Below are positions 17,188 to 62,965 of a stretch of DNA of 64,000 nt, piece by piece (position 1 is the stretch's first letter; each line of letters begins with the position of its first letter). Position numbers and translations under genes: made by a program. The notes beneath the pieces were generated by a model that did no database searches, was not told the DNA's origin, and saw nothing but the letters and a program-made list of their open reading frames with translations. The stretch is from Gayadomonas joobiniege G7 (GTDB lineage Bacteria > Pseudomonadota > Gammaproteobacteria > Enterobacterales > Alteromonadaceae). The stretch covers positions 62,001-126,000 of the forward strand of contig NZ_AMRX01000003.1 of NCBI RefSeq assembly GCF_000300815.1, in the 5' to 3' direction.

Positions 17188-17532
17188 TTGGCACAGGCAG
17201 GAAACAAAACTGAGCCGCAAAGTAATGATCGTCAGCCGAATTTGGCGCGCTTATTACTGGCAGATTTGGCCAAACATTGGCAAATCCCTGTGCTGTTAAT
17301 AGGGATTTTAGCGAGCGCTCACATGGTAATTGATTTTGCTTGGAAAAATCGGCAACTCAATAGCGAGTTACAGGTTTTACAAGAGGAAAAAGATAAATTA
17401 GACATAGATTTTAGACATATGTTGTTAGAGCACAATGCGCTATCAGAACACAATAGGATAGAGCAAATCGCCAAAGATAAACTTGAGATGAAACGGCCTT
17501 TGGGCAAAGATGAAATAATTATTAAAGACTAA
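17188..17532 (+). CDS. ftsL: Cell division protein FtsL
   Basis: FtsL is a bitopic divisome protein that works with FtsB and FtsQ to activate FtsWI. From the TTG at 17188 the protein is 114 residues: a short cytoplasmic part, a membrane segment IPVLLIGILASAHMVIDFAW near residues 35-55, and a periplasmic leucine-zipper-like coiled coil (LNSELQVLQEEKDKLDIDF) ending in the conserved region before KRPLGKDEIIIKD. A longer frame starting with ATG at 17116 would overlap rsmH by 68 bases and give an untypical N-terminus. A GAGAG tract precedes the TTG. The stop overlaps the ftsI start by one base. Confidence 0.88.
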   Translation: MAQAGNKTEPQSNDRQPNLARLLLADLAKHWQIPVLLIGILASAHMVIDFAWKNRQLNSELQVLQEEKDKLDIDFRHMLLEHNALSEHNRIEQIAKDKLEMKRPLGKDEIIIKD

Positions 17533-40946: not shown

Positions 40947-41618
40947 TTATTTGGGCGGGTCTATTTGTCCTTTAACCGAAGTATTTAACCTAAACCAACC
41001 GGCAATGCTATAACGAGTGCGTTTGGCGGCTAGTACTTCATGTGGAAATTCTTCGCTTAAAAATACCACCATAGTACCAGCTTGTGGGCTGACTTGGGTG
41101 AGAATTTTATTGTTGTCGGCCGGATCGTAAATCACCAGTTCACCCCCATCTTCAGGTTGCCAATTGGGATTTAGATAATACACAGTTGAAAGAATACGGT
41201 TGGCTTGGCCTTTAAACGCATCTAGATGTTTTTTATAAAATGCCCCTTCAGGGTAGCAGGCAAAGTGGGATTCATAACTAAACAACCCCAAAAAAAGTTG
41301 GCGGTTTAATTGCTCGCGCAATAACGACATTTGGGCCAGCCAAGCTTTTTCGGCCGCAGAACCTTCTTTTATCCAAACAATTTTATCTTGGCGAACAAAC
41401 TTATTGGTGGTTTCATTTTGGTTGCGCCCAATCGCGGCTTGTTTCATTTGTTTTTCGGATAATTGCACCGCATGTTTAATCAGGCTGGTTTCAATATCAA
41501 CTGGCAAGGCGTGTGGAATAATGGCATAACCTTGGCTTTGCAATGCATTCGCGATCGCTAAAAAGTTGATTGAACTGGCATTTGAATCGGCTAATTCAAA
41601 CATGGTAGTAGCATCCAA
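40947..41618 (-). CDS. PHD-type 2-oxoglutarate/Fe(II) prolyl hydroxylase
   Basis: A 223-residue 2-oxoglutarate-dependent oxygenase similar to the EGLN/PHD group. The iron-binding triad is His131, Asp133 (HLDAFKG) and His193 (FPHEVL). Arg202 in TRYSIAGWF is the expected 2-oxoglutarate ligand. The sequence around FACYPEGAFYKKH and ILSTVYYLNPNWQPEDGGEL resembles the corresponding part of human PHD2. Bacterial relatives in Pseudomonas hydroxylate a proline of EF-Tu, so a translation factor is a likely substrate here, which fits its neighbour rsmE; this is inference. An internal Met at residue 6 is an alternative start. Confidence 0.83.
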   Translation of the reverse strand: MDATTMFELADSNASSINFLAIANALQSQGYAIIPHALPVDIETSLIKHAVQLSEKQMKQAAIGRNQNETTNKFVRQDKIVWIKEGSAAEKAWLAQMSLLREQLNRQLFLGLFSYESHFACYPEGAFYKKHLDAFKGQANRILSTVYYLNPNWQPEDGGELVIYDPADNNKILTQVSPQAGTMVVFLSEEFPHEVLAAKRTRYSIAGWFRLNTSVKGQIDPPK

Positions 41619-41744
41619 AATATAGGGGAGCGTATTTTATCCAATATTGAAAGTTTGCCAAGGAAAATATCCGTATCCAAAAAATATAGTCTTTTATGGG
41701 GTGACATAAATTTTTAACAAGAATCAAATAGCATATCCAGCTTT

Positions 41745-41801: not shown

Positions 41802-42323
41802 ATGTCTAAAAAGAAGAACAGACTGAAAGATCTTTATCAAAACTACTGGGCAGATTTAAGCAAACTGTTTCGGCACAAATTATCAGGTTCAGGCTTTGAC
41901 TACGAAGATGCGATTCAAAACGCTTTTATTAAGTTCTCAGAACTTGACCAAAAAACACAAGTCGTCAACCCAAAAGCGTATTTATACCAACTCACTAAAA
42001 ATGATTATATTGATTATCATAGGCGGCAAAAGTTGGAAGCTGCATTCATAGATTCGCAATTGAGTACACCTCACGAGGGCCATCATAGTCCAGAAGATTG
42101 TTTAAGCACTCAGCAACAAATCGATTTATTAGAGGCGTCAGTTGAAAGTTTAAGCGAACAACAAAAAACAATTTTAGTAATGCATCGTATTGACGGTAAA
42201 ACCTATGCAGAGATTGCCCAACATTTAGGATGCTCTATTGCTCATGTCTGTCGTCAACTGAATCAGAGTTTGGTTATTTTAGCGGCCAACATGCAAGCTT
42301 CCGGAGGGAATAATGAGTCGTAG
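41802..42323 (+). CDS. FecI-type ECF RNA polymerase sigma factor
   Basis: A 173-residue sigma-70 family ECF factor of the FecI type. Region 2 is visible in YWADLSKLFRHKLSGSGFDYEDAIQNAFIKFSE (residues about 15-46, in pieces) and PKAYLYQLTKNDYIDYHRRQ near residues 59-78; region 4 in LSEQQKTILVMHRIDGKTYAEIAQHLGCSI near residues 120-148 with its helix-turn-helix. It lies directly before fecR, overlapping by 11 bases, and upstream of a TonB-dependent receptor with an STN signalling domain. The three proteins therefore form a cell-surface signalling relay in which the sigma factor drives the receptor operon when ligand binds. Confidence 0.9.
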   Translation: MSKKKNRLKDLYQNYWADLSKLFRHKLSGSGFDYEDAIQNAFIKFSELDQKTQVVNPKAYLYQLTKNDYIDYHRRQKLEAAFIDSQLSTPHEGHHSPEDCLSTQQQIDLLEASVESLSEQQKTILVMHRIDGKTYAEIAQHLGCSIAHVCRQLNQSLVILAANMQASGGNNES

Positions 42324-43296
42324 TAGCGTTGAGCAAGCAGTTGATTGGTTAACCGCATTAAATGATCCAAATTGTAGTTTTCAAACTCAGGCTGAGTTTA
42401 AGGTCTGGCTAGAGCAAAGTGATGAACACTTGAAAGCCTTTAACAGTGTTTTAGATCTCTGGCAGGCTTTGCCTAGTAGTAAGCATCTGCAAAATCATAA
42501 CAAAAAGCTTAAGCTGTCTGACAGCCAAAATCGTCCAGCGCGCAAACAGCTTAAGGTCTGGCAATGGTCATCTGTGGCTGCTTGTTTCGGAGTGATTCTA
42601 GTATCTCTTTTTTTGTCGTTTTTTTCCGCACCGGACGCCACACAAAAAATATACCGAACTCAAGTGGGTCAAATAAAATCTTTTGTATTAAGTGATGGCT
42701 CTGTTGTTACCCTGGGCGGGAATAGTTTATTTATTTCTCAGTTTTCTGCAGATAAGAGATACACACGGCTGGACGTCGGTGAAGCATATTTTGATATAGT
42801 CGCAAATTCAGAACGTCCATTTGTGGTGGAAACAGGCCGGACCAAAGTGACCGTCTTAGGCACTGAATTTGAAATTAAACATCAGCAATCACAAGTTGAA
42901 CTCAATGTTGCTGAAGGAAGTGTACAAATCACTGACCAGCAAGCAATCTATCAAGGGCGAACTCAAAATCAAGCGTTAATTGCGGGCCAGGGTATTGTTT
43001 TTACTGAACAACAAGGGCTCGGCGAAATTAAAGCGATTAACATGCATGAGATAGCAAATTGGCGGGACAAGCGATTCGACTTCGAAGACCGGCCATTGTC
43101 TCAGATAGTCGCGCGTCTGAATTCGTACTACTCGCCGGGCATCGTTTTATTAGCTAATGCAAATATAGATAATATAACCGCTTCATTTAACCTGTCTCAG
43201 ATAGGTGCCTTTCTCAACGGATTAGCAGCAAGTTATCCGCTTAAAATTGAAAAAGCTGAGTCGGGGGAGTACTTAATCGTTGATAAAATGAATTAA
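42313..43296 (+). CDS. FecR-type anti-sigma factor / signal transducer
   Basis: A 327-residue single-pass membrane protein of the FecR family. The N-terminal cytoplasmic part (SSVEQAVDWLTALNDPNCSF, about 85 residues) holds the sigma factor. A membrane segment VAACFGVILVSLFLSFFS lies near residues 93-110. The periplasmic FecR domain contains IYRTQVGQIKSFVLSDGSVV, LGGNSLFISQF, RLDVGEAYFDIV and PFVVETGRTKVTVLGTEFEI, all typical. The C-terminal DUF4974-like part (FDFEDRPLSQIVARLNSYY) resembles the STN fold and would contact the receptor. It overlaps the sigma gene by 11 bases. A 140-base gap with two hairpins separates it from the receptor gene. Confidence 0.9.
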   Translation: MSRSSVEQAVDWLTALNDPNCSFQTQAEFKVWLEQSDEHLKAFNSVLDLWQALPSSKHLQNHNKKLKLSDSQNRPARKQLKVWQWSSVAACFGVILVSLFLSFFSAPDATQKIYRTQVGQIKSFVLSDGSVVTLGGNSLFISQFSADKRYTRLDVGEAYFDIVANSERPFVVETGRTKVTVLGTEFEIKHQQSQVELNVAEGSVQITDQQAIYQGRTQNQALIAGQGIVFTEQQGLGEIKAINMHEIANWRDKRFDFEDRPLSQIVARLNSYYSPGIVLLANANIDNITASFNLSQIGAFLNGLAASYPLKIEKAESGEYLIVDKMN

Positions 43297-43304
43297 CAAA
43301 AGAT

Positions 43305-43344
43305 CACTATAAATGAAGGTTTTATTAAAACATCATTTATAGTG
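43305..43344 (+). repeat. Long composite hairpin after fecR
   Basis: CACTATAAATGA (43305-43316) pairs perfectly with TCATTTATAGTG (43333-43344); inside it GTTTT (43319-43323) pairs with AAAAC (43327-43331). It begins eight bases after the fecR stop. No T-run follows, so it may protect the upstream mRNA or reduce read-through instead of being a classic terminator. Confidence 0.6.
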
Positions 43345-43382
43345 AAAAATTTTGCAACTTCGTTCGTCCTAGCAAACGAGTC

Positions 43383-43404
43383 GCGGGAATATATGCTATC
43401 CCGC
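43383..43404 (+). repeat. Second hairpin before the TonB receptor
   Basis: GCGGGA (43383-43388) and TCCCGC (43399-43404) form a six-pair stem with a ten-base A/T-rich loop, 33 bases before the receptor start. Upstream, GCAACTT (43354-43360) and CGAGTC (43377-43382) have the spacing of a possible ECF-type promoter, which would place the hairpin at the 5' end of the receptor mRNA. Confidence 0.4.
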
Positions 43405-43436
43405 CATTAAAGCTAATCGAATGGAAAAATAACAAT

Positions 43437-46358
43437 ATGAAACACCGTACAATAGCATCTCTTTTATCAATGTCTTTAATTTCGGCTGTTGCTTCAGCTC
43501 AATCGGAGATAGTTGCCTTTGATATTCCCGCGATATCGTTAGAAAAAGCACTGAAAGAGTTTTCACGTCAGTCTAACCAACCAGCGTTGGCCCCAGCCAG
43601 TTTGCTAAAAGGAAAAACGTCTACCGTCGTTGATGGTGAAATGCCAGCAATGCAAGCTTTAGAAACTATGTTAAAGGGCACGGGGCTAAAGGCTTCACAA
43701 GATTCTAGTGGCAGCTTCATTATTTCTAGAGCTGTGAAAAGTGAGCTGGGTAAAAGCTTACAAAAGCCTGTTCGTGAGACCTCAAAACCGTTGCAAAGTC
43801 CAAATCAAATGGAAGAAATCGTGACTGTTGGTTATCGCAGTAGCCTATTGAATTCATTGGCTAGCAAACAAGTTGCCAATCAGTTTGTAGATACTATTAC
43901 TGCTGAGGATATTGGTCTTTTACCCGACCAAAACATTACTGAATCGTTGCAACGAATTTCTGGTGTCGCTATTACTCGTTCAAATGGCGAGGGTGAACAA
44001 GTGTCGATTCGAGGCTTATCACCAAATTTTACTCGTGTTGAAGTTAATGGCCGTACTTCACTTATAACGTCAGATTCTTCAGACCCAGGACGTTCCAGTA
44101 CGTTGTCCAGCTTGTCTTCCGAATTATTTCAGACCATTGAAGTAGTTAAATCGCCAACTGCTAAAGACGAAGAAGGTGGCCTTGGAGGGATTGTTCGTTT
44201 ATCAACACCCAAACCTCTAAATCGCAAAGGCCAGTTGGTTGGCGGTCAAGTGGGCTATGCTAAAAATCAAGCAAAAGAAAAAGCAGAGCCGTCTGGTTAT
44301 TTAATGTATAGCCTCAACCATGAAGATAAGGTTGGTGTACTGATGTCTGCCAGCGCTAAAAAACAAGACCGCGACCTGCTTAAAATATCAACACCGCAAG
44401 GCGATCGTTGGGCTCCCATTACAGAAGATAGATTTGATAATGACCTTGACGCTAATTTAGTTGGGGCATTTTCAAGTGCCAATATTCGTAAAGAACAGCG
44501 CTCGGGTGACAATGACAAAATTAACTTTAACCTAGTGACTCAATATCGGCCACATTCTAATTTAGAATTTTATCTTGATGGGTTTTATAGCAACGAAGAT
44601 AAAATCGAACGAATTGAACGGTTAGATTCTCAATTTAACCGTGTTTCTAAACCTCAAAATGCGAGTGCCATTTTAGTCCGCGGTGAATCTGATGGAAAGG
44701 TATTAACCTACGGTGAATTTGAGAATGTGCGCTCTGATTTACGTGTGTTTGAACGCGATACTAGCATTAACAGCCGAGGCTTAACGTTGGCTAACATTTA
44801 TTTACTTAAAGACTGGCAATTTAAAACACAATTTGGCCTAAGTGCTAGTGAAGAAGATCGTTATCAAGCAAGGATAACCGGCCGAGAGGATAATGATATT
44901 GCCAGTTACGATATTAGAAATGACGCAGAAACACCTCTGTATCAAGCTGGGATCGCTAAAGCTGATTTTAGTGATATTACCGTGAGACAATTTGATTGGC
45001 AGCGCAGGTTGATTGAAATAGAAGAAAAGTTTATCCAATTTGATGGCGAAAAAGAAATCAACTTAGGTGCATTTGATGTTCTTTATTTTGGTGCAAAAAA
45101 GAAATCAACCGAATTTTCTAGAATGCAGGGTTACAATTATGCACCGACAAAAATTGGCGATTTAGATCTCACGTTAAATTACGCACTTGCGACGGACTCA
45201 GAGTTATCTGATATTCGCCCCACATTGCAATTAAATAGTCTGGGCATTTTAGCCAGCGATATTGATTTTAATGACATAAACACTGCAGACAATAACCGCT
45301 ATGACATTACTGAAGAGACCACAGCACTTTATCTAATGAGTGATTTTGAGCATTTTTTAGATAAGTATACACTTCGTGGTAACCTCGGTGGACGATGGGT
45401 AAGCATGGATACCGAAAGTGTCGGCGCAGTGCGAATTGACGGAGTTTTGCAAGACTTTGGTGATAATAGTTCAGTAGTGCACACTAAATCATCACACTTT
45501 TTACCGTCGGCAAATATTGCTTTAGTTGACAATGTGGGCATGAGTCCCACTATTTATAGAGCGTCTGTAAGCCGCGCGTTAACTCGCCCAGAGATTAACC
45601 AAATCACTCCAGTCCTCGATGTTAACAATGATGAAAATGAGTTGTCATCGGGCAATGCCGAACTGGATCCGTTTTTAGCCTGGCAGTATGATTTGGGTGT
45701 CGAATATTATTTTAACCCAAACAACCCGTCGATTTTGGCTTTTGGTTTATTTTACAAAGATGTTGAAAATTTCACATTGGCCGATGTTTACGAAGTTGAT
45801 GCAACGACTTCAAATTTACAGGGCTTAAAGCCGGACACTCTTTATTCTTATTCATCATACCGCAATGGAGGGGAAGCCGAAGTCAAGGGTATCGAAGTCA
45901 ACTTCCAGTCTGGTTTAGAGATAATATCAGACCATCTAAGGGATTTTGGAGTTAATTTAAACTATACCTACACTGATTCAACCTTTACTGACGCAGACGG
46001 GACTGAGCGATCGTTTCCTGGTGCATCAGAAAATACCTTTAATGCCATACTATATTATGAGGTCGATGCTTTCAGCACTCGTTTTTCTTACAACTACCGC
46101 GATGACTTTTTAATTGACCCAGCAGTCGACGACTTCAATGGTGATGGTTTATCAGACAGTAACACCGTATATGGCCAAGGAGGAGGACGGCTAGATTTTG
46201 CATTCCGGTATTATTTTGAATCTGGTTTACGGATTTCGTTTGATGTGATGAATATCACCGAAGAGCAAGAGTACCGATACTATGATGAAGCGACACGGTT
46301 TGCCAATATAGATAATGAAGGCCGTATTTTCAGCGTTACTATGTCTTATTCAATGTAA
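43437..46358 (+). CDS. TonB-dependent outer membrane receptor with STN signalling domain
   Basis: A 973-residue TonB-dependent transducer. A signal peptide ends near residue 21 (AVASA). The STN domain follows near residues 28-100 (FDIPAISLEKALKEFSRQSN), which signals to FecR. The TonB-box-like MEEIVTVGY is near residue 123, then the plug domain with FVDTITAEDIGLLPDQNITE and VSIRGLSPNFTRVEVNGR, and a long beta barrel. DDFNGDGLSDSNTVYG near residues 897-912 looks like an EF-hand-type calcium loop in an outer loop. The C-terminus is SVTMSYSM, without the usual terminal aromatic residue. The ligand is unknown; the two phosphoesterases behind it point to a phosphorylated compound. Confidence 0.92.
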   Translation: MKHRTIASLLSMSLISAVASAQSEIVAFDIPAISLEKALKEFSRQSNQPALAPASLLKGKTSTVVDGEMPAMQALETMLKGTGLKASQDSSGSFIISRAVKSELGKSLQKPVRETSKPLQSPNQMEEIVTVGYRSSLLNSLASKQVANQFVDTITAEDIGLLPDQNITESLQRISGVAITRSNGEGEQVSIRGLSPNFTRVEVNGRTSLITSDSSDPGRSSTLSSLSSELFQTIEVVKSPTAKDEEGGLGGIVRLSTPKPLNRKGQLVGGQVGYAKNQAKEKAEPSGYLMYSLNHEDKVGVLMSASAKKQDRDLLKISTPQGDRWAPITEDRFDNDLDANLVGAFSSANIRKEQRSGDNDKINFNLVTQYRPHSNLEFYLDGFYSNEDKIERIERLDSQFNRVSKPQNASAILVRGESDGKVLTYGEFENVRSDLRVFERDTSINSRGLTLANIYLLKDWQFKTQFGLSASEEDRYQARITGREDNDIASYDIRNDAETPLYQAGIAKADFSDITVRQFDWQRRLIEIEEKFIQFDGEKEINLGAFDVLYFGAKKKSTEFSRMQGYNYAPTKIGDLDLTLNYALATDSELSDIRPTLQLNSLGILASDIDFNDINTADNNRYDITEETTALYLMSDFEHFLDKYTLRGNLGGRWVSMDTESVGAVRIDGVLQDFGDNSSVVHTKSSHFLPSANIALVDNVGMSPTIYRASVSRALTRPEINQITPVLDVNNDENELSSGNAELDPFLAWQYDLGVEYYFNPNNPSILAFGLFYKDVENFTLADVYEVDATTSNLQGLKPDTLYSYSSYRNGGEAEVKGIEVNFQSGLEIISDHLRDFGVNLNYTYTDSTFTDADGTERSFPGASENTFNAILYYEVDAFSTRFSYNYRDDFLIDPAVDDFNGDGLSDSNTVYGQGGGRLDFAFRYYFESGLRISFDVMNITEEQEYRYYDEATRFANIDNEGRIFSVTMSYSM

Positions 46359-46375
46359 CTTTCAACTGACAATCA

Positions 46376-46394
46376 GCCGCCACCAATTGGCGGC
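46376..46394 (+). repeat. GC-rich hairpin after the receptor gene
   Basis: GCCGCCA (46376-46382) pairs with TGGCGGC (46388-46394) around a five-base loop, 18 bases behind the receptor stop and 14 before the first phosphoesterase. It lacks a T-run and may act as a partial terminator or mRNA stabiliser that sets different levels for receptor and enzymes. Confidence 0.5.
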
Positions 46395-46407
46395 CTAGGC
46401 AGCTTTT

Positions 46408-47847
46408 ATGTTAAGAATTTTTTTATTAATACTCATGTTATCAAGCCATAGCCATGCGCATAACCATGGACATGCCCCGCTATGGCAACAAGCGTCAGGT
46501 TGGCCTGATCGAATTATTGTTAATCCAGGTAAAGATGCAACGACGAGTTTTAGTGTGACTTGGCGAACTGCCTCTCATGTCGCTCGATCTGTGATTCAGC
46601 TTGTACCCGCCTCAGCTGATACCCGTTTTGATTTAGCGGCGCAAACTTATAAAGCACAAATGGAAGTATTCAACTTAGAACATATGCAAACAGATGCGGG
46701 GCTTCACCATAGTAGTGAAAATAGCCTGCTTGACTCTGTACACTACCACAGTTTTACATTTGAAAATTTAACACCTGATACTTTGTACGCCTATCGAGTT
46801 AGAGGAGAGCGGGGTAAATGGAGTGAATGGTTGCAAACAAAAACGGCGGCCACTAACGGTAAGTTATCTTTTATCTATCTCGGCGACTCTCAAAACGGAG
46901 TGAGGAGTCATTGGTCTAGAGTCATTCGACAGGCTTATCAGACGTTACCGAATGCCGATTTTTTTTTGCATGCAGGTGATCTTGTGTCTGTCGGTGATAG
47001 TGATCTTAACTGGGCAGAATGGTTTGATGCGGGAGGCTTTATCCACCGAATGACGCCTGCTATACCTGTGCGAGGCAATCATGAAAACATCACCGTTAGA
47101 AATGAAAACGGGCGTAAACGTGTCCGAACCCCATTTTGGCGCGCACAATTTACTCTACCGGAGGAAAAAAACTTAAGTTCGAGCCTGCAAGAGTCTAACT
47201 ATATGGTGAATTTTGCAGATACTATGACTTTGTTTGTCATCGATTCATCAACAAAAACCTTTACGGAGCAAGTTAAATGGTTAGATGAAGCATTAGCGAG
47301 CGACAAAGCGAAGTGGCGTGTTTTGACTATGCACCATCCATTTTTTGTTGCCGATAAATTTGCTCGTAATAAAACGGATATAAAGCGCAAAGCCGCATTT
47401 AAACAGTTACTTTCCCGTCATCGTATCGATCTTGTGTTAACCGGACACATACATACCTACCTAAGAGGTGAGCGGAGTCAACAAACGAGCCGCACTGCTG
47501 ACTCCATAACAACTGCTAGTGAGATAATGGGCCCGGTATTTGTCGTATCTTCATCGGGTGCCAAAAACACCAATTTAGATAGCGACATAGATGAATATGC
47601 AAACGATAAAAATAGTTTGCTGCAAATATCTCGCCACGCGGGCAATACACCTATGTATCAGGCTATTACTATTGAAGGTAACAGTTTAAATTACCGTGCC
47701 TATACAGGCGTCGGCAGTCAGTATGATGCATTTACATTAACAAAAAGCGCACAAGGAAATCTACTCACCGAAGGTAAAGCAGCATTCGGAGAGCAACGCC
47801 TGTTTACCAATACTGGTAAATATATCGACTGGTACGATTTACGTTAA
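46408..47847 (+). CDS. Secreted metallophosphoesterase, purple-acid-phosphatase-like (copy 1)
   Basis: A 479-residue exported protein. The signal peptide (LRIFLLILMLSSHSHA) is followed by a His-rich mature start HNHGHAPLWQ. An N-terminal fibronectin-III-like domain (GWPDRIIVNPGKDATTSFSV, LTPDTLYAYRVRGE) precedes a calcineurin-like phosphoesterase domain. Metal-site motifs are GDSQ with Asp160, GDLV with Asp191, GNHE with Asn224/His225, HHP at 309-310 and GHIH with His347/His349. The layout is that of purple acid phosphatases, but their Tyr ligand (GDxxY) is missing and the first motif reads DxQ, so a colourless di-metal enzyme is expected. It pairs with the paralogue at 47863. Substrate unknown. 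Confidence 0.87.
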   Translation: MLRIFLLILMLSSHSHAHNHGHAPLWQQASGWPDRIIVNPGKDATTSFSVTWRTASHVARSVIQLVPASADTRFDLAAQTYKAQMEVFNLEHMQTDAGLHHSSENSLLDSVHYHSFTFENLTPDTLYAYRVRGERGKWSEWLQTKTAATNGKLSFIYLGDSQNGVRSHWSRVIRQAYQTLPNADFFLHAGDLVSVGDSDLNWAEWFDAGGFIHRMTPAIPVRGNHENITVRNENGRKRVRTPFWRAQFTLPEEKNLSSSLQESNYMVNFADTMTLFVIDSSTKTFTEQVKWLDEALASDKAKWRVLTMHHPFFVADKFARNKTDIKRKAAFKQLLSRHRIDLVLTGHIHTYLRGERSQQTSRTADSITTASEIMGPVFVVSSSGAKNTNLDSDIDEYANDKNSLLQISRHAGNTPMYQAITIEGNSLNYRAYTGVGSQYDAFTLTKSAQGNLLTEGKAAFGEQRLFTNTGKYIDWYDLR

Positions 47848-47862
47848 AGGGTAGGACAAATA

Positions 47863-49350
47863 ATGAATAAAATAAATAGAATAGTACTACTAATGATTGT
47901 AGTCATATTTAGCTCCAAATCAAATGCTCATGGAGGCCATCACCAGATCCCACCTTGGCAAGCACCAACCACTTGGCCCGATCGCATTGTAGCGACCGTG
48001 ACTAATTCACCTTCCGACAGCTTTTCGGTGAATTGGCGAACGAGTAAAACGGTTGGCGTGGCATTGGCCGAAATTGTGCCAGCAACTGCCGATGCAAGGT
48101 TTGATTTAAATGCCAAAACCGTAAAAGCAACTAGTGAGTTATTTGATCCTGCTGTGCTTGCCACGCCCGAAGGCCAAGAAGATATTGTGCTCAATCAGGG
48201 CCTTGATAAAGTGGTTTATCACTCGGTGACTTTTTCTGGGCTGAAGCCAGATACTTTATACGCGTACCGAGTACGGGGTGAAGTGGGTAAGTGGAGTGCT
48301 TGGTATCAAGTTAAAACAGCCCCATCTACTGGTCACGTGAAAGCTGTATTTTTTGGTGACGCACAAACAGGAATTCGTTCTCATGTTAGCCGTACGATCG
48401 CGGCTGCGGCAAAAGTTGCGCCAGATGCTGATTTGTTAATACATGGAGGAGATTTAGTGAATACGGCTGAATACGATCAAGAATGGGCTGAATGGTTTGA
48501 TGCCGGAGGTCGCTCATACCGTATGGTACCGTCTCTATTAGTGCCAGGGAATCATGACTACGTCAATTTTTCGGTGCGTAAAGGGCTAGGTAAAAGAGAG
48601 GGCGGCAAGCTATTTGTTGCTGACAAAACAGTCACACCTTGGTGGCGCGCTCAGTTTACTTTACCAATTGAAAAAGGTTTGCCTTTAGCACTTCATGAAA
48701 CTGTTTATGCGATCCTTTACAATGACAACTTGCATATATTTGCAATAGATAGCTCGGGCATAGAGTTTGATAAACAAATGAAATGGTTAGCAAAAGAGCT
48801 AGCGATGAGCAAAGCCAAATGGCGTATTGTCACCATGCATCACCCGTTATTTTCATTTGTGGGAGGCAGTGAACACCCAGCAGCTAAGGAGCGACGTCTG
48901 TTATTAGCGAATGTGTTAGCAGAGCACGACGTTGATTTAGTACTCACCGGACATCGTCATACCTATCAAAGAGCGGAAAAAGGAGAAAACCTTGCACGCT
49001 TTAACGTAGGTCAAGCGCATCAAGTTGATACAGTTTTTGTGGTCACTGCGTCTTCTACAAAACGCGGGGATACAAAAGTAGAAGGATGGGACAGATTTAG
49101 CGAGCAAACTAAAGGAGAATATGCACTAACAAGATACGCAAACAAAACACCAATTTTTGCGGTAGTGGAAATTGACGAAAAAGAGTTAAGGTTTGCGGCC
49201 TATGATCCTGTTGGAAACTTGTATGATGCATTTTCCCTAAACAAAAAAGGTAAGCAAAAAACCATCAAAAATCACGCAGCGGCCTCAGGGCCAATTCGGG
49301 ATGGGGACGCGCTAGGACCCTATAAAAAATGGGATGATTTGCGGCATTAA
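47863..49350 (+). CDS. Secreted metallophosphoesterase, purple-acid-phosphatase-like (copy 2)
   Basis: A 495-residue paralogue of the preceding gene, starting 15 bases after it. The signal peptide (NRIVLLMIVVIFSSKSNA) is followed by HGGHHQIPPWQ, again His-rich. The fibronectin-III-like domain shows TWPDRIVATVTNSPSDSFSV and LKPDTLYAYRVRGE; the phosphoesterase domain shows FFGDAQTGIRSH, HGGDLVNTAEYD, VPGNHDYV, TMHHPLFSF and LTGHRHTYQRAEKG. As in copy 1, the first motif reads DxQ and the usual Tyr of purple acid phosphatases is not at its place, although a Tyr lies seven residues after GDLV. It has an insertion VRKGLGKREGGKLFVADK after GNHD compared with copy 1. A strong terminator follows at 49366-49411. 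Confidence 0.87.
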   Translation: MNKINRIVLLMIVVIFSSKSNAHGGHHQIPPWQAPTTWPDRIVATVTNSPSDSFSVNWRTSKTVGVALAEIVPATADARFDLNAKTVKATSELFDPAVLATPEGQEDIVLNQGLDKVVYHSVTFSGLKPDTLYAYRVRGEVGKWSAWYQVKTAPSTGHVKAVFFGDAQTGIRSHVSRTIAAAAKVAPDADLLIHGGDLVNTAEYDQEWAEWFDAGGRSYRMVPSLLVPGNHDYVNFSVRKGLGKREGGKLFVADKTVTPWWRAQFTLPIEKGLPLALHETVYAILYNDNLHIFAIDSSGIEFDKQMKWLAKELAMSKAKWRIVTMHHPLFSFVGGSEHPAAKERRLLLANVLAEHDVDLVLTGHRHTYQRAEKGENLARFNVGQAHQVDTVFVVTASSTKRGDTKVEGWDRFSEQTKGEYALTRYANKTPIFAVVEIDEKELRFAAYDPVGNLYDAFSLNKKGKQKTIKNHAAASGPIRDGDALGPYKKWDDLRH

Positions 49351-60812: not shown

Positions 60813-60847
60813 TTATGAAAAATAAAGAAAAAACGGAGCGTAAGGGC

Positions 60848-62965
60848 ATGAGTATTTTAGTTCGCCCGGGACTTATCAAGCAGATTTCTGCACTGACTCT
60901 GTCAGCGGCCATGATTTTTTCGGCCCCTACTGCCATTAGTGCCGAGTATTCACCAAATTTTAAAGGCACAGATATTAATGAGTTTATCAATATTGTTGGT
61001 AAAAACTTAAAAAAGACCATTATTGTTGATCCCAATGTTCGCGGTAAAATTAATGTTCGTAGTTATGATTTGCTAACCGAAGATCAGTATTATCAGTTCT
61101 TTTTAAATGTCCTCGAAGTGTATGACTACGCCGTGGTCGAAATGTCCAATGGTGTGATAAAGGTTATTCGCGACAAAGATGCAAAAACCTCATCTATACC
61201 CGTGGTAGAAGACCAAGAGCAAGGTGATGGCGATGCCATGGTGACTCGCGTCGTGCAGGTTTATAATGTATCAGTTAAAGAACTCTCGCCTTTGTTAAGA
61301 CAACTTAATGACCAGGCCGGTGGTGGTAACGTAGTGCATTATGACCCCTCTAACGTGATCATGTTAACGGGCCGAGCTGCCGTAGTGAACCGATTAGCAG
61401 AGATTATTCGACGGGTTGATCAAGCTGGTGACCAAGAAGTTGAAATTGTTAATTTAAAATTTGCTTCTGCCACAGAAGTTGTTCGTATCATAGATACTTT
61501 GAATAAAGATGCGGCCAAAAACCGAACGCCAGACAATTTAATCCCCAAGGTGGTAGCGGACGACAGAACTAACAGTGTTATCGTCAGTGGGGAAGGTACA
61601 GCGCGCAATCGCACAATCCAAATGATTAAACGGTTAGACAGTGAACTAGAAAGCAGTGGTAATACCAAAGTTTATTATCTCAAATACGCTAATTCCGAAG
61701 ATATGGTAAAAGTACTGCAAGGGGTGAGCTCAAGTATCGCACAGGATAAAGCAGGAGGCGCTAAAACAACGACCAGCAGTAAAAGTAATCGTGATATTAG
61801 TATCGAAGCACACCCAGACAGTAATGCTTTAGTGATCACTGCCGAGCCAGATATGATGCGCTCACTTGAAGCTGTTATCCGGCAATTAGATATTCGCCGC
61901 GCGCAGGTCCAAGTTGAAGCTATTATTGTTGAAGTGTTTGAAGGTGACGGATTTAATTTAGGTGTGCAATGGATTAGTGAAGATGGTGGCATGGTGCAGT
62001 TCACCAATAGCACGCCGATTGGTTCAATTGCTGTTGGTGCAGAGCAAGCAAGAACGCGATATGAAGCCGATGAAATTACTTACCGTACAGACTCATCAGG
62101 TGCGCCCGTTTATGACGATGACGGCAACCGAGTTATTGCCAGCGTGGTTGAAGGTGACGAGATTCAAGGTGATTTTAGCACGCTTGCTAGCTTATTAGGG
62201 GGCGTCAACGGGACTTTAGTTGGGGTTGTTAAAGATGGTTGGGGGGCAGTGCTGCAAGCGGTCACGACGGCAACTAATTCTAATATATTGGCAACACCCA
62301 GTTTAACGACATTAGATAACCAAGAAGCTTCATTTATCGTGGGTCAAGAAGTGCCAACAATCACAGGCGCCACGGCATCTAGCACTAATTCAAATCCATT
62401 TCAGACCGTTGAGCGGAAAGAAGTCGGTATTAAACTCAAAGTAACGCCGCAAATTAATGAAGGTAATGCTGTGATGCTGACAATAGAACAAGAAGTGTCT
62501 AGTGTGGCGGGCGCAACCGGTGTGGATGTAAGTTTTAATAAACGTGAAATTAAAACCACGGTAATGGCTGATGATGGTGCGACTATCGTTCTTGGTGGTT
62601 TGATTGATGAAGACATTCAAGAAAGTGTCTCTAAGGTGCCTTTGTTAGGAGATATTCCAATTATTGGCAACCTGTTTAAATCAACCAGTAATACGAAACG
62701 TAAGCGCAACCTGATGGTGTTCATCAAACCGACCATTATTCGGGATGGTTTAAGCCAAAGCAAAGTGAGTCATCGAAAATATAACTTCTTGCGTGCTCAG
62801 CAAATTAAACGCCAATCTGAAGGCAACTTTTTGTCATACAGTGATGACATTTCTGTTTTGCCAGAGTGGGATGACCATATGGCATTGCCCCCTTCGTTTG
62901 AAGAGTACTTAAGCGAAAAAGGCGCGTTAAAAGAGTATTTGAAAAAACATGACGAGCAAGAATAA
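60848..62965 (+). CDS. gspD: Type II secretion system secretin GspD
   Basis: GspD forms the outer membrane channel of the type II system. From the ATG at 60848, with GGAG nine bases before it, the protein is 705 residues; an ATG at 60815 would add 11 residues but has no ribosome binding site. A signal peptide ends near ISA before [20 protein letters not shown] (N0 domain). N1-N3 domains follow ([60 protein letters not shown]), then the secretin core with [20 protein letters not shown] and [20 protein letters not shown]. The acidic C-terminal tail may bind a pilotin. It overlaps gspE by one base. Confidence 0.95.

Follow-up and report, generated by a model that had tools for sequence, protein, structure and literature searches.

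A FecI/FecR-type signaling module with two purple-acid-phosphatase-like enzymes in Gayadomonas joobiniege G7 and its putative link to phosphate starvation

Iron chelates and glycans are the ligands usually associated with FecI/FecR-linked receptors. In classical FecI systems, a promoter lies between fecR and the receptor gene (PMC4971064). A link to phosphate is described for Pseudomonas aeruginosa, where expression of vreAIR depends on PhoB and the target promoters of VreI carry a pho box ahead of the extracytoplasmic function (ECF) -35 and -10 elements. At the pdtA promoter, this box, which directly precedes the -35 element, has to be intact, VreI requires PhoB for binding, and full output is reached only when phosphate is scarce and the anti-sigma factor has been removed (PMC4971064). 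VreA is a small, mostly soluble, and probably periplasmic protein that combines an STN domain with a TolA-like part (PMC2729926), and secretion systems and secreted proteins are among the products of the VreI regulon (PMC7035377). In Flavobacterium johnsoniae, the phosphate utilization systems (PUS) are TonB-dependent receptor (TBDT)/SusC loci with phosphoesterases that are induced by phosphate depletion, with an ECF sigma factor encoded in PUSI and a FecR protein and a sigma factor in PUSIII (PMC8115612). A TBDT gene stands beside a phytase gene in Citromicrobium (PMC3400609), the PhoB regulon of Caulobacter takes in TBDTs and a phytase (PMC11208175), and a Caulobacter TBDT and the lipoprotein ElpS are tied to phosphate starvation (PMC2996285). 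The subject of the present analysis is a five-gene module at positions 41802–49350 of a 64,000-nucleotide stretch of DNA from Gayadomonas joobiniege G7 (contig NZ_AMRX01000003.1, positions 62,001 to 126,000), referred to below as the window, in which a FecI/FecR pair and an STN-bearing TBDT precede two exported phosphoesterases; its features make it probable that the module is a two-input, self-contained circuit for scavenging organophosphates.

All five genes lie on the plus strand and encode a FecI-type ECF sigma factor (41802–42323; sigma-70 regions 2 and 4, TIGR02937, 80.9 bits), a FecR-type anti-sigma factor or sigma regulator (42313–43296; FecR, 72.9 bits, and DUF4880), an STN-domain TBDT with a TIGR01782 barrel (43437–46358; Plug, 57.2 bits, STN, 29.6 bits, and TIGR01782, 511 bits), and two exported metallophosphoesterases that resemble purple acid phosphatases (PAPs), PAP1 (46408–47847) and PAP2 (47863–49350), both with Metallophos and Pur_ac_phosph_N domains. 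The domain families were assigned with Pfam and NCBIfam models, by which the receptor is a full STN-plug-barrel protein of 973 amino acids, and the ECF sigma factor, the FecR anti-sigma factor, and the STN-bearing receptor follow one another in the order of FecI/FecR cell-surface signaling. The initial annotation had named the same five co-directional genes, with paralogous exported metallophosphoesterases at the end, and both the open reading frames (ORFs) and the domain matches agree with it. It had also called them an operon. However, the 140 bases that separate fecR from the receptor gene contain a conserved promoter-like element, which makes two transcription units likely and one transcript for all five genes improbable.

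Upstream of the sigma gene, a Pho-box-like site, GTGACATAAATTTTTAAC, is found at 41701–41718 on the plus strand, scoring 12.4 with an E. coli-type matrix made from eight E. coli Pho boxes, and exactly 10 bases after it follows a -10-like box, TAGCAT (41729–41734, plus strand). It is the only position in the 64 kb, on either strand, that combines a score of at least 10 with this matrix and a TANNNT at a distance of 10 bases (N10), and shuffled sequences reached its score in 3/1000 cases and the score plus the -10-like box in 0/1000. When the window is taken together with the 14 related loci defined below as class A, the best plus-strand Pho-like site before the sigma gene leads to a TANNNT at exactly N10 in 15/15 loci, and the same spacing follows the best site in 1/130 upstream regions of other ORFs in class A loci. 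Among 12 control systems (other FecI/FecR systems of the same genomes, several closely related to each other), 0/12 have a TANNNT at N10 and none scores 8 or more, in a scan that left out 10/22 non-module FecR loci and 3/8 module loci in which no sigma gene was recognized in the stretch. The genome that carries the module also encodes PhoB and a PstS-type binding protein.

A second Pho-box-like site lies inverted upstream of the receptor gene (TTTTAATAAAACCTTCAT on the minus strand, 43313–43330) and scores 13.8 with a native matrix, built from 12 phoB/pstS sites of the family's own promoters. It is the best site of the whole 64-kb window with the native matrix, the second with a pooled matrix (E. 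coli and native), and the fourth with the E. coli matrix, and it has an aligned counterpart in 15/15 loci. By pattern search, the inverted site forms part of a composite promoter element, TGAAGNTTTYNTNAAA-N13-TGAAAAA (43314–43349, plus strand), in which it precedes a putative ECF -35 element. One copy of this composite pattern occurs per genome in 15/15 genomes (3.9–5.4 Mb), with none elsewhere in them at up to one mismatch, and the reversed pattern occurs 0 times in the same 15 genomes at this tolerance; the presence in the 15 loci is by construction, because the pattern was written from them, and the uniqueness is the informative part. If the composite is an ECF promoter, the sigma factor would have a dedicated single-operon regulon. 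Both promoters look PhoB-dependent, and PhoB would be predicted to bind at each of them.

Several observations weigh against PhoB control of the module. With the native matrix, the window sigma site has a weak score of 6.1 (8.9 with the pooled one), and the sigma sites of L045 (6.7), L046 (6.7), L054 (5.8), and L058 (2.8) score low with the E. coli matrix, the last being the weakest of all, with shuffles reaching its score together with the -10-like box in 46/1000 cases. In L058, the native matrix prefers another site to the inverted one, and in the window a site at 17510, outside the module, scores above the two module sites when either the E. coli or the pooled matrix is used, leaving the sigma site second with the former. 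The site at 17510–17527 (minus strand; 12.9 with the E. coli matrix and 14.2 with the pooled matrix) stands at the start of a penicillin-binding-protein gene. Alternatively, the inverted site could belong to the ECF promoter itself, since its distance of 13 bases from the -35-like block is fixed in 15/15 loci, as that of a promoter part would be. Together with the weak native score of the sigma site, this favors an explanation in which the Pho-like matches stem from the ECF promoter or from chance, and the module is gated by its ligand and not tied to phosphate status. Such an explanation is unlikely in view of the constant N10 spacing of TANNNT, of the positive controls, in which 9/15 phoB upstream regions from the same 15 genomes score at least 10 with the E. 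coli matrix and eight of those nine carry NATAAT at the same spacing, and of the known case of VreI, where a pho box precedes the ECF -35 element (PMC4971064). As a further positive control, six of the 12 pstS upstream regions score at least 10 with the E. coli matrix, three with a TANNNT at that spacing, and phoB and pstS upstream regions scoring below 10 perhaps reflect wrong or distant gene starts.

The gene order is conserved in the family. A profile of six PAP-like proteins run against 395 family genomes matched 43 of them, the window's own included, in 12/52 genera. Class A comprises the 14 genomes besides the window's own that score above 500 bits with this profile, from four other genera and with nine genomes from one genus; FecI-FecR-TBDT-PAP is present in the same order and direction in 14/14 of them, the genes having been recognized by similarity to the window proteins and checked with profiles for L045 and L058 and for three receptors. 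Each class A locus carries one PAP and a receptor of another type (~830 amino acids), and no other genome whose neighborhood was read has the exact five-gene set with its two PAPs. The conserved co-occurrence of five families that the initial annotation proposed to look for is thus borne out for FecI-FecR-TBDT-PAP across 14 genomes and four other genera and not for the two-PAP set. A near-orphan reading, based on a single-protein search (2/295 genomes of the order, own included), was overturned by the profile search. Two further observations concern the surroundings of class A: in seven loci (L048, L049, L052, and L054–L057), an ORF of ~525 amino acids follows the PAP gene in the same direction and in L048 matches YHYH and a PKD domain, and genes for a phosphonatase (phnX), an aminophosphonate oxidoreductase, and a 2-aminoethylphosphonate transaminase (phnW) lie 3–8 kb from the class A module of L058 (1286–5869, genome G421).

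Two properties of class A count against a phosphorus-linked module: the loci are not independent, with 9/14 from one genus, and the three receptors checked have as their best model the siderophore-receptor family TIGR01783, at 130–166 bits and below its cut-off. The latter fits an ordinary iron-type FecI/FecR/FecA system, for a siderophore or an iron-phosphoester chelate, whose phosphoesterases free the metal or the ligand, as do the FecI/FecR/STN-TBDT architecture, which is classically iron-linked, and the divergent 2-oxoglutarate (2OG)-Fe(II) oxygenase gene next door. An iron system is nevertheless quite improbable, as no Fur-box-like site stands out before the sigma gene (the best matches are 10/19 in the window, 10–13 in module loci, and 10–13 in the 12 controls alike), the Pho-like promoter is specific to the module, and a phosphoesterase is kept in 14/14 class A loci, though class A is defined by having it.

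Weaker-scoring relatives also point to phosphorus. Six neighborhoods were read among 28 weaker-scoring family genomes, of which five constitute class B (L060–L064) and the sixth, L059 (6904–12197, genome G440), has three PAP-like genes in a row beside genes for a sulfatase and a DUF4861 protein. In class B, the PAP gene clusters with a TIGR01782-like receptor gene in 5/5 loci, directly adjacent in four (model checked for L060 and L062), and with a phytase or acid phosphatase gene in 5/5, namely, a beta-propeller phytase in L062 and L064 and a histidine acid phosphatase in L060, L061, and L063; L060 additionally encodes a phosphate-selective porin of type O/P. Pho sites scoring at least 10 occur only in L060 and L061 among these five loci. 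Because class B relatives keep company with phytases, inositol phosphates such as phytate are the leading candidate for the ligand, a possible but doubtful assignment; profile matches place neither a beta-propeller nor a histidine-acid phytase, one of which a phytate utilization locus would have, in the window module. The initial annotation had tied the signaling module to phosphorus and not to iron or glycans, and this claim gains indirect support from the gene order, the PhoB-like promoters, and the company of phytases and acid phosphatases. In a survey of the phylum, 8/398 genomes matched, own included. A distant locus, L201 (11157–17748, genome G1246), has a TBDT-PAP-GDPD arrangement adjoining a second sigma-FecR-TBDT set with a PhoD-like phosphatase, which is possibly an independent phosphorus-type signaling system. 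In L199 (genome G1196), a strong PAP match (580 bits) stands with no receptor or sigma factor recognized within a 19-kb stretch, so PAPs are not always accompanied by a TBDT.

The receptor and the two PAPs of the window seem to have a different origin from the signaling genes. A peptide-pattern scan of named genomes led to three metagenome-assembled genomes of Verrucomicrobiota, and in the order of G667 (the source of L010, titled Opitutales), 25/273 genomes match at E ≤ 1e-60, G667 included. In G697 (L172), from the same order, a receptor gene is followed by two PAP genes in the order of the window, without FecI/FecR. Eighteen regions were read from genomes of the Opitutales order and from G668, six of them short; a recognized TBDT gene directly precedes the PAP gene in 2/18 (L172 and L176), and none was recognized there in the other 16, which include L188, where the PAP was not called by the ORF script. 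Window PAP1 and PAP2 are 49 and 55% identical to their respective L172 counterparts, vs. only 38% between window PAP1 and L172 PAP2. In the PAP tree, window PAP1 pairs with L172 PAP1 (99/98), and window PAP2 groups with L009, L010, L011, and L172 PAP2 in a clade (100/100) that has the class A PAPs as its sister clade. The window barrel is nearest to those of L172 and L010 in the receptor tree (100/100; 40% identity to L172; long branches flagged), and among 345 family genomes, with two candidates scored per genome, receptor matches at E ≤ 1e-100 came from no genome but the window's own.

The sigma factor, the FecR protein, and, with moderate support, the STN region group with the family. The window sigma factor joins the 14 class A sigma factors (100/99), apart from 12 control sigma factors, and the window FecR joins the 14 class A FecR proteins (97/95), apart from the controls, with long branches flagged in both trees. 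The L010 and L172 receptors show no STN domain (the L010 model match starts at residue 45, and L172 was read by eye), and the window STN region is nearest to those of class A module receptors; 11/14 family module receptors rank above all 12 control N-termini and three do not, at least three of these control N-termini (L120, L121, and L127) not looking like receptors. The simplest reading seems to be a graft, in which a family-type sigma factor, FecR, and STN domain were joined to a receptor barrel and two PAPs of verrucomicrobial type, with the STN part of the graft moderately supported. The G697 cassette adjoins a divergent OmpR-type response regulator and a histidine kinase; the cassette thus seems to be combined with different switches.

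The verrucomicrobial relatives also hint at glycans, which is a point against organophosphates as the substrate, since L010 and L011 lie among sulfatase-like genes with a LacI-like regulator (ORFs read by eye). Utilization of a glycan or sulfated glycan, with the PAP-like enzymes acting on phosphorylated or otherwise substituted polysaccharide, would also suit the sulfatase and DUF4861 genes beside the three PAPs of L059 and the TIGR01782 match of the window receptor, a type that we take to be often carbohydrate-linked. It is quite unlikely, however, given that 0/5 module proteins match glycosidase, lyase, or sulfatase families, that the promoters are of the phosphate type, and that class B relatives are partnered by a phytase or acid phosphatase.

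From the gene content and its conservation, the promoter-like elements, the uniqueness of the composite, and the shared ancestry, all read from DNA, we infer how the organophosphate-scavenging circuit might operate. Phosphate starvation would lead PhoB to turn on the FecI/FecR pair, and PhoB would also occupy a site adjoining the ECF promoter that serves the receptor operon. An external phosphorus-bearing ligand would bind the TBDT, whose STN domain would signal to FecR and free the sigma factor, and the freed sigma factor, together with PhoB, would transcribe a single target, the operon of its own receptor and phosphoesterases. The receptor would then carry the ligand into the periplasm, and the two PAP-like enzymes would cleave phosphoesters there or outside the cell, allowing uptake of inorganic phosphate. 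A wider interpretation, held tentatively and with slightly less than even confidence, is that one lineage of PhoB-controlled FecI/FecR AND-gates drives exactly one operon, keeping the STN domain and the phosphoesterase output and swapping barrels (in the window through a graft that joins a receptor-PAP1-PAP2 cassette of verrucomicrobial type to the family STN domain and sigma/FecR pair), and senses and imports organophosphates, perhaps inositol phosphates, through a TonB receptor. If true, a PhoB-gated version with dedicated phosphoesterases would offer a testable route for the active import of large, charged organophosphates, and the module would be a case of natural receptor swapping, with the signaling half kept and the sensing half changed.

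The module also points to an exported PAP-like phosphoesterase family that is common to different phyla and stands beside phytases in some genomes. The two window enzymes are 42% identical to each other, and both N-termini resemble signal peptides when read by eye. Their nearest solved structures in a profile search are plant purple acid phosphatases (1xzw at 41 bits, then 6git at 35 bits), and the Pur_ac_phosph_N domain and the metallophosphoesterase motifs GD-GD-GNH-HH-GHxH, which mark purple acid phosphatases, are present, with motifs kept for 6/7 metal ligands. In purple acid phosphatases, the purple color comes from a tyrosine metal ligand in the second motif (GDxxY). This tyrosine is missing here, the second motif being GDLVN in PAP2 and GDLVS in PAP1, and the position aligned to the 1xzw tyrosine is asparagine in PAP2 and likewise in the profile; the window enzymes are therefore PAP-like and not strict purple acid phosphatases. 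In one class A locus (L053, 9067–10491, genome G554), the PAP stops early, with a C-terminus unlike the others and without the conserved C-terminal motif. A type II secretion secretin gene (GspD-like; window 60815–62965) lies ~11 kb downstream and could be relevant to enzyme export.

The module is flanked by what we take, from sequence, to be an rsmE-like gene and the malate dehydrogenase gene (mdh), with the 2OG-Fe(II) oxygenase gene and a MarR-type regulator gene as further neighbors, and the flanks look like housekeeping genes. In G448 (locus L222), one of seven same-genus genomes, ~113 bases separate mdh from the adjoining rsmE-like gene, a place that is taken in the window by the oxygenase gene and the module; the other six gave no rsmE match within the 1.5 kb examined, and phosphoesterases were found in 0/7 same-genus genomes at E ≤ 1e-40. 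Probably, then, this species acquired the module or its relatives lost it. The oxygenase gene (40947–41618), divergent from the sigma gene, is itself missing from the interval between these two flanking genes in G448.

In relation to known systems, the module resembles FecI/FecR/FecA in having a sigma factor, FecR, an STN receptor, and a promoter-like element between fecR and the receptor gene, but differs in having Pho-like instead of Fur-like control and phosphoesterases as its output. The closest logic is that of P. aeruginosa VreA/VreI/VreR (PUMA3), with a Pho-like box before the sigma gene and, in the module, an inverted Pho-like box before an ECF-like promoter, known here from motifs of uneven strength. 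Unlike PUMA3, in which VreA lacks a barrel, the module has a full STN receptor barrel, phosphoesterases, and an apparent one-operon regulon. The Flavobacterium PUS differ in being SusCD pairs of Bacteroidetes, whereas 0/5 module proteins match SusD, and the portions of PMC8115612 drawn on here name a PhoA-type phosphomonoesterase and phosphodiesterases, no PAP-like enzyme, and no promoter scheme combining PhoB with an ECF sigma factor. For the TBDT-phytase neighborhoods of Citromicrobium and Caulobacter, neither FecI/FecR coupling nor a PAP-like enzyme is described in the corresponding portions of the sources (PMC3400609; PMC11208175). Open-access literature yielded nothing joining a TonB-dependent receptor, phytase, anti-sigma factor, and phosphatase, or joining Alteromonas, phytate, and TonB, and on PAPs and TBDTs with FecI or marine bacteria, it yielded nothing beyond a review (PMC9414882). 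The label of an undescribed system in the initial annotation is nonetheless too strong, because PhoB-gated ECF signaling by VreI and phosphate-induced SusC/FecR loci are already in print.

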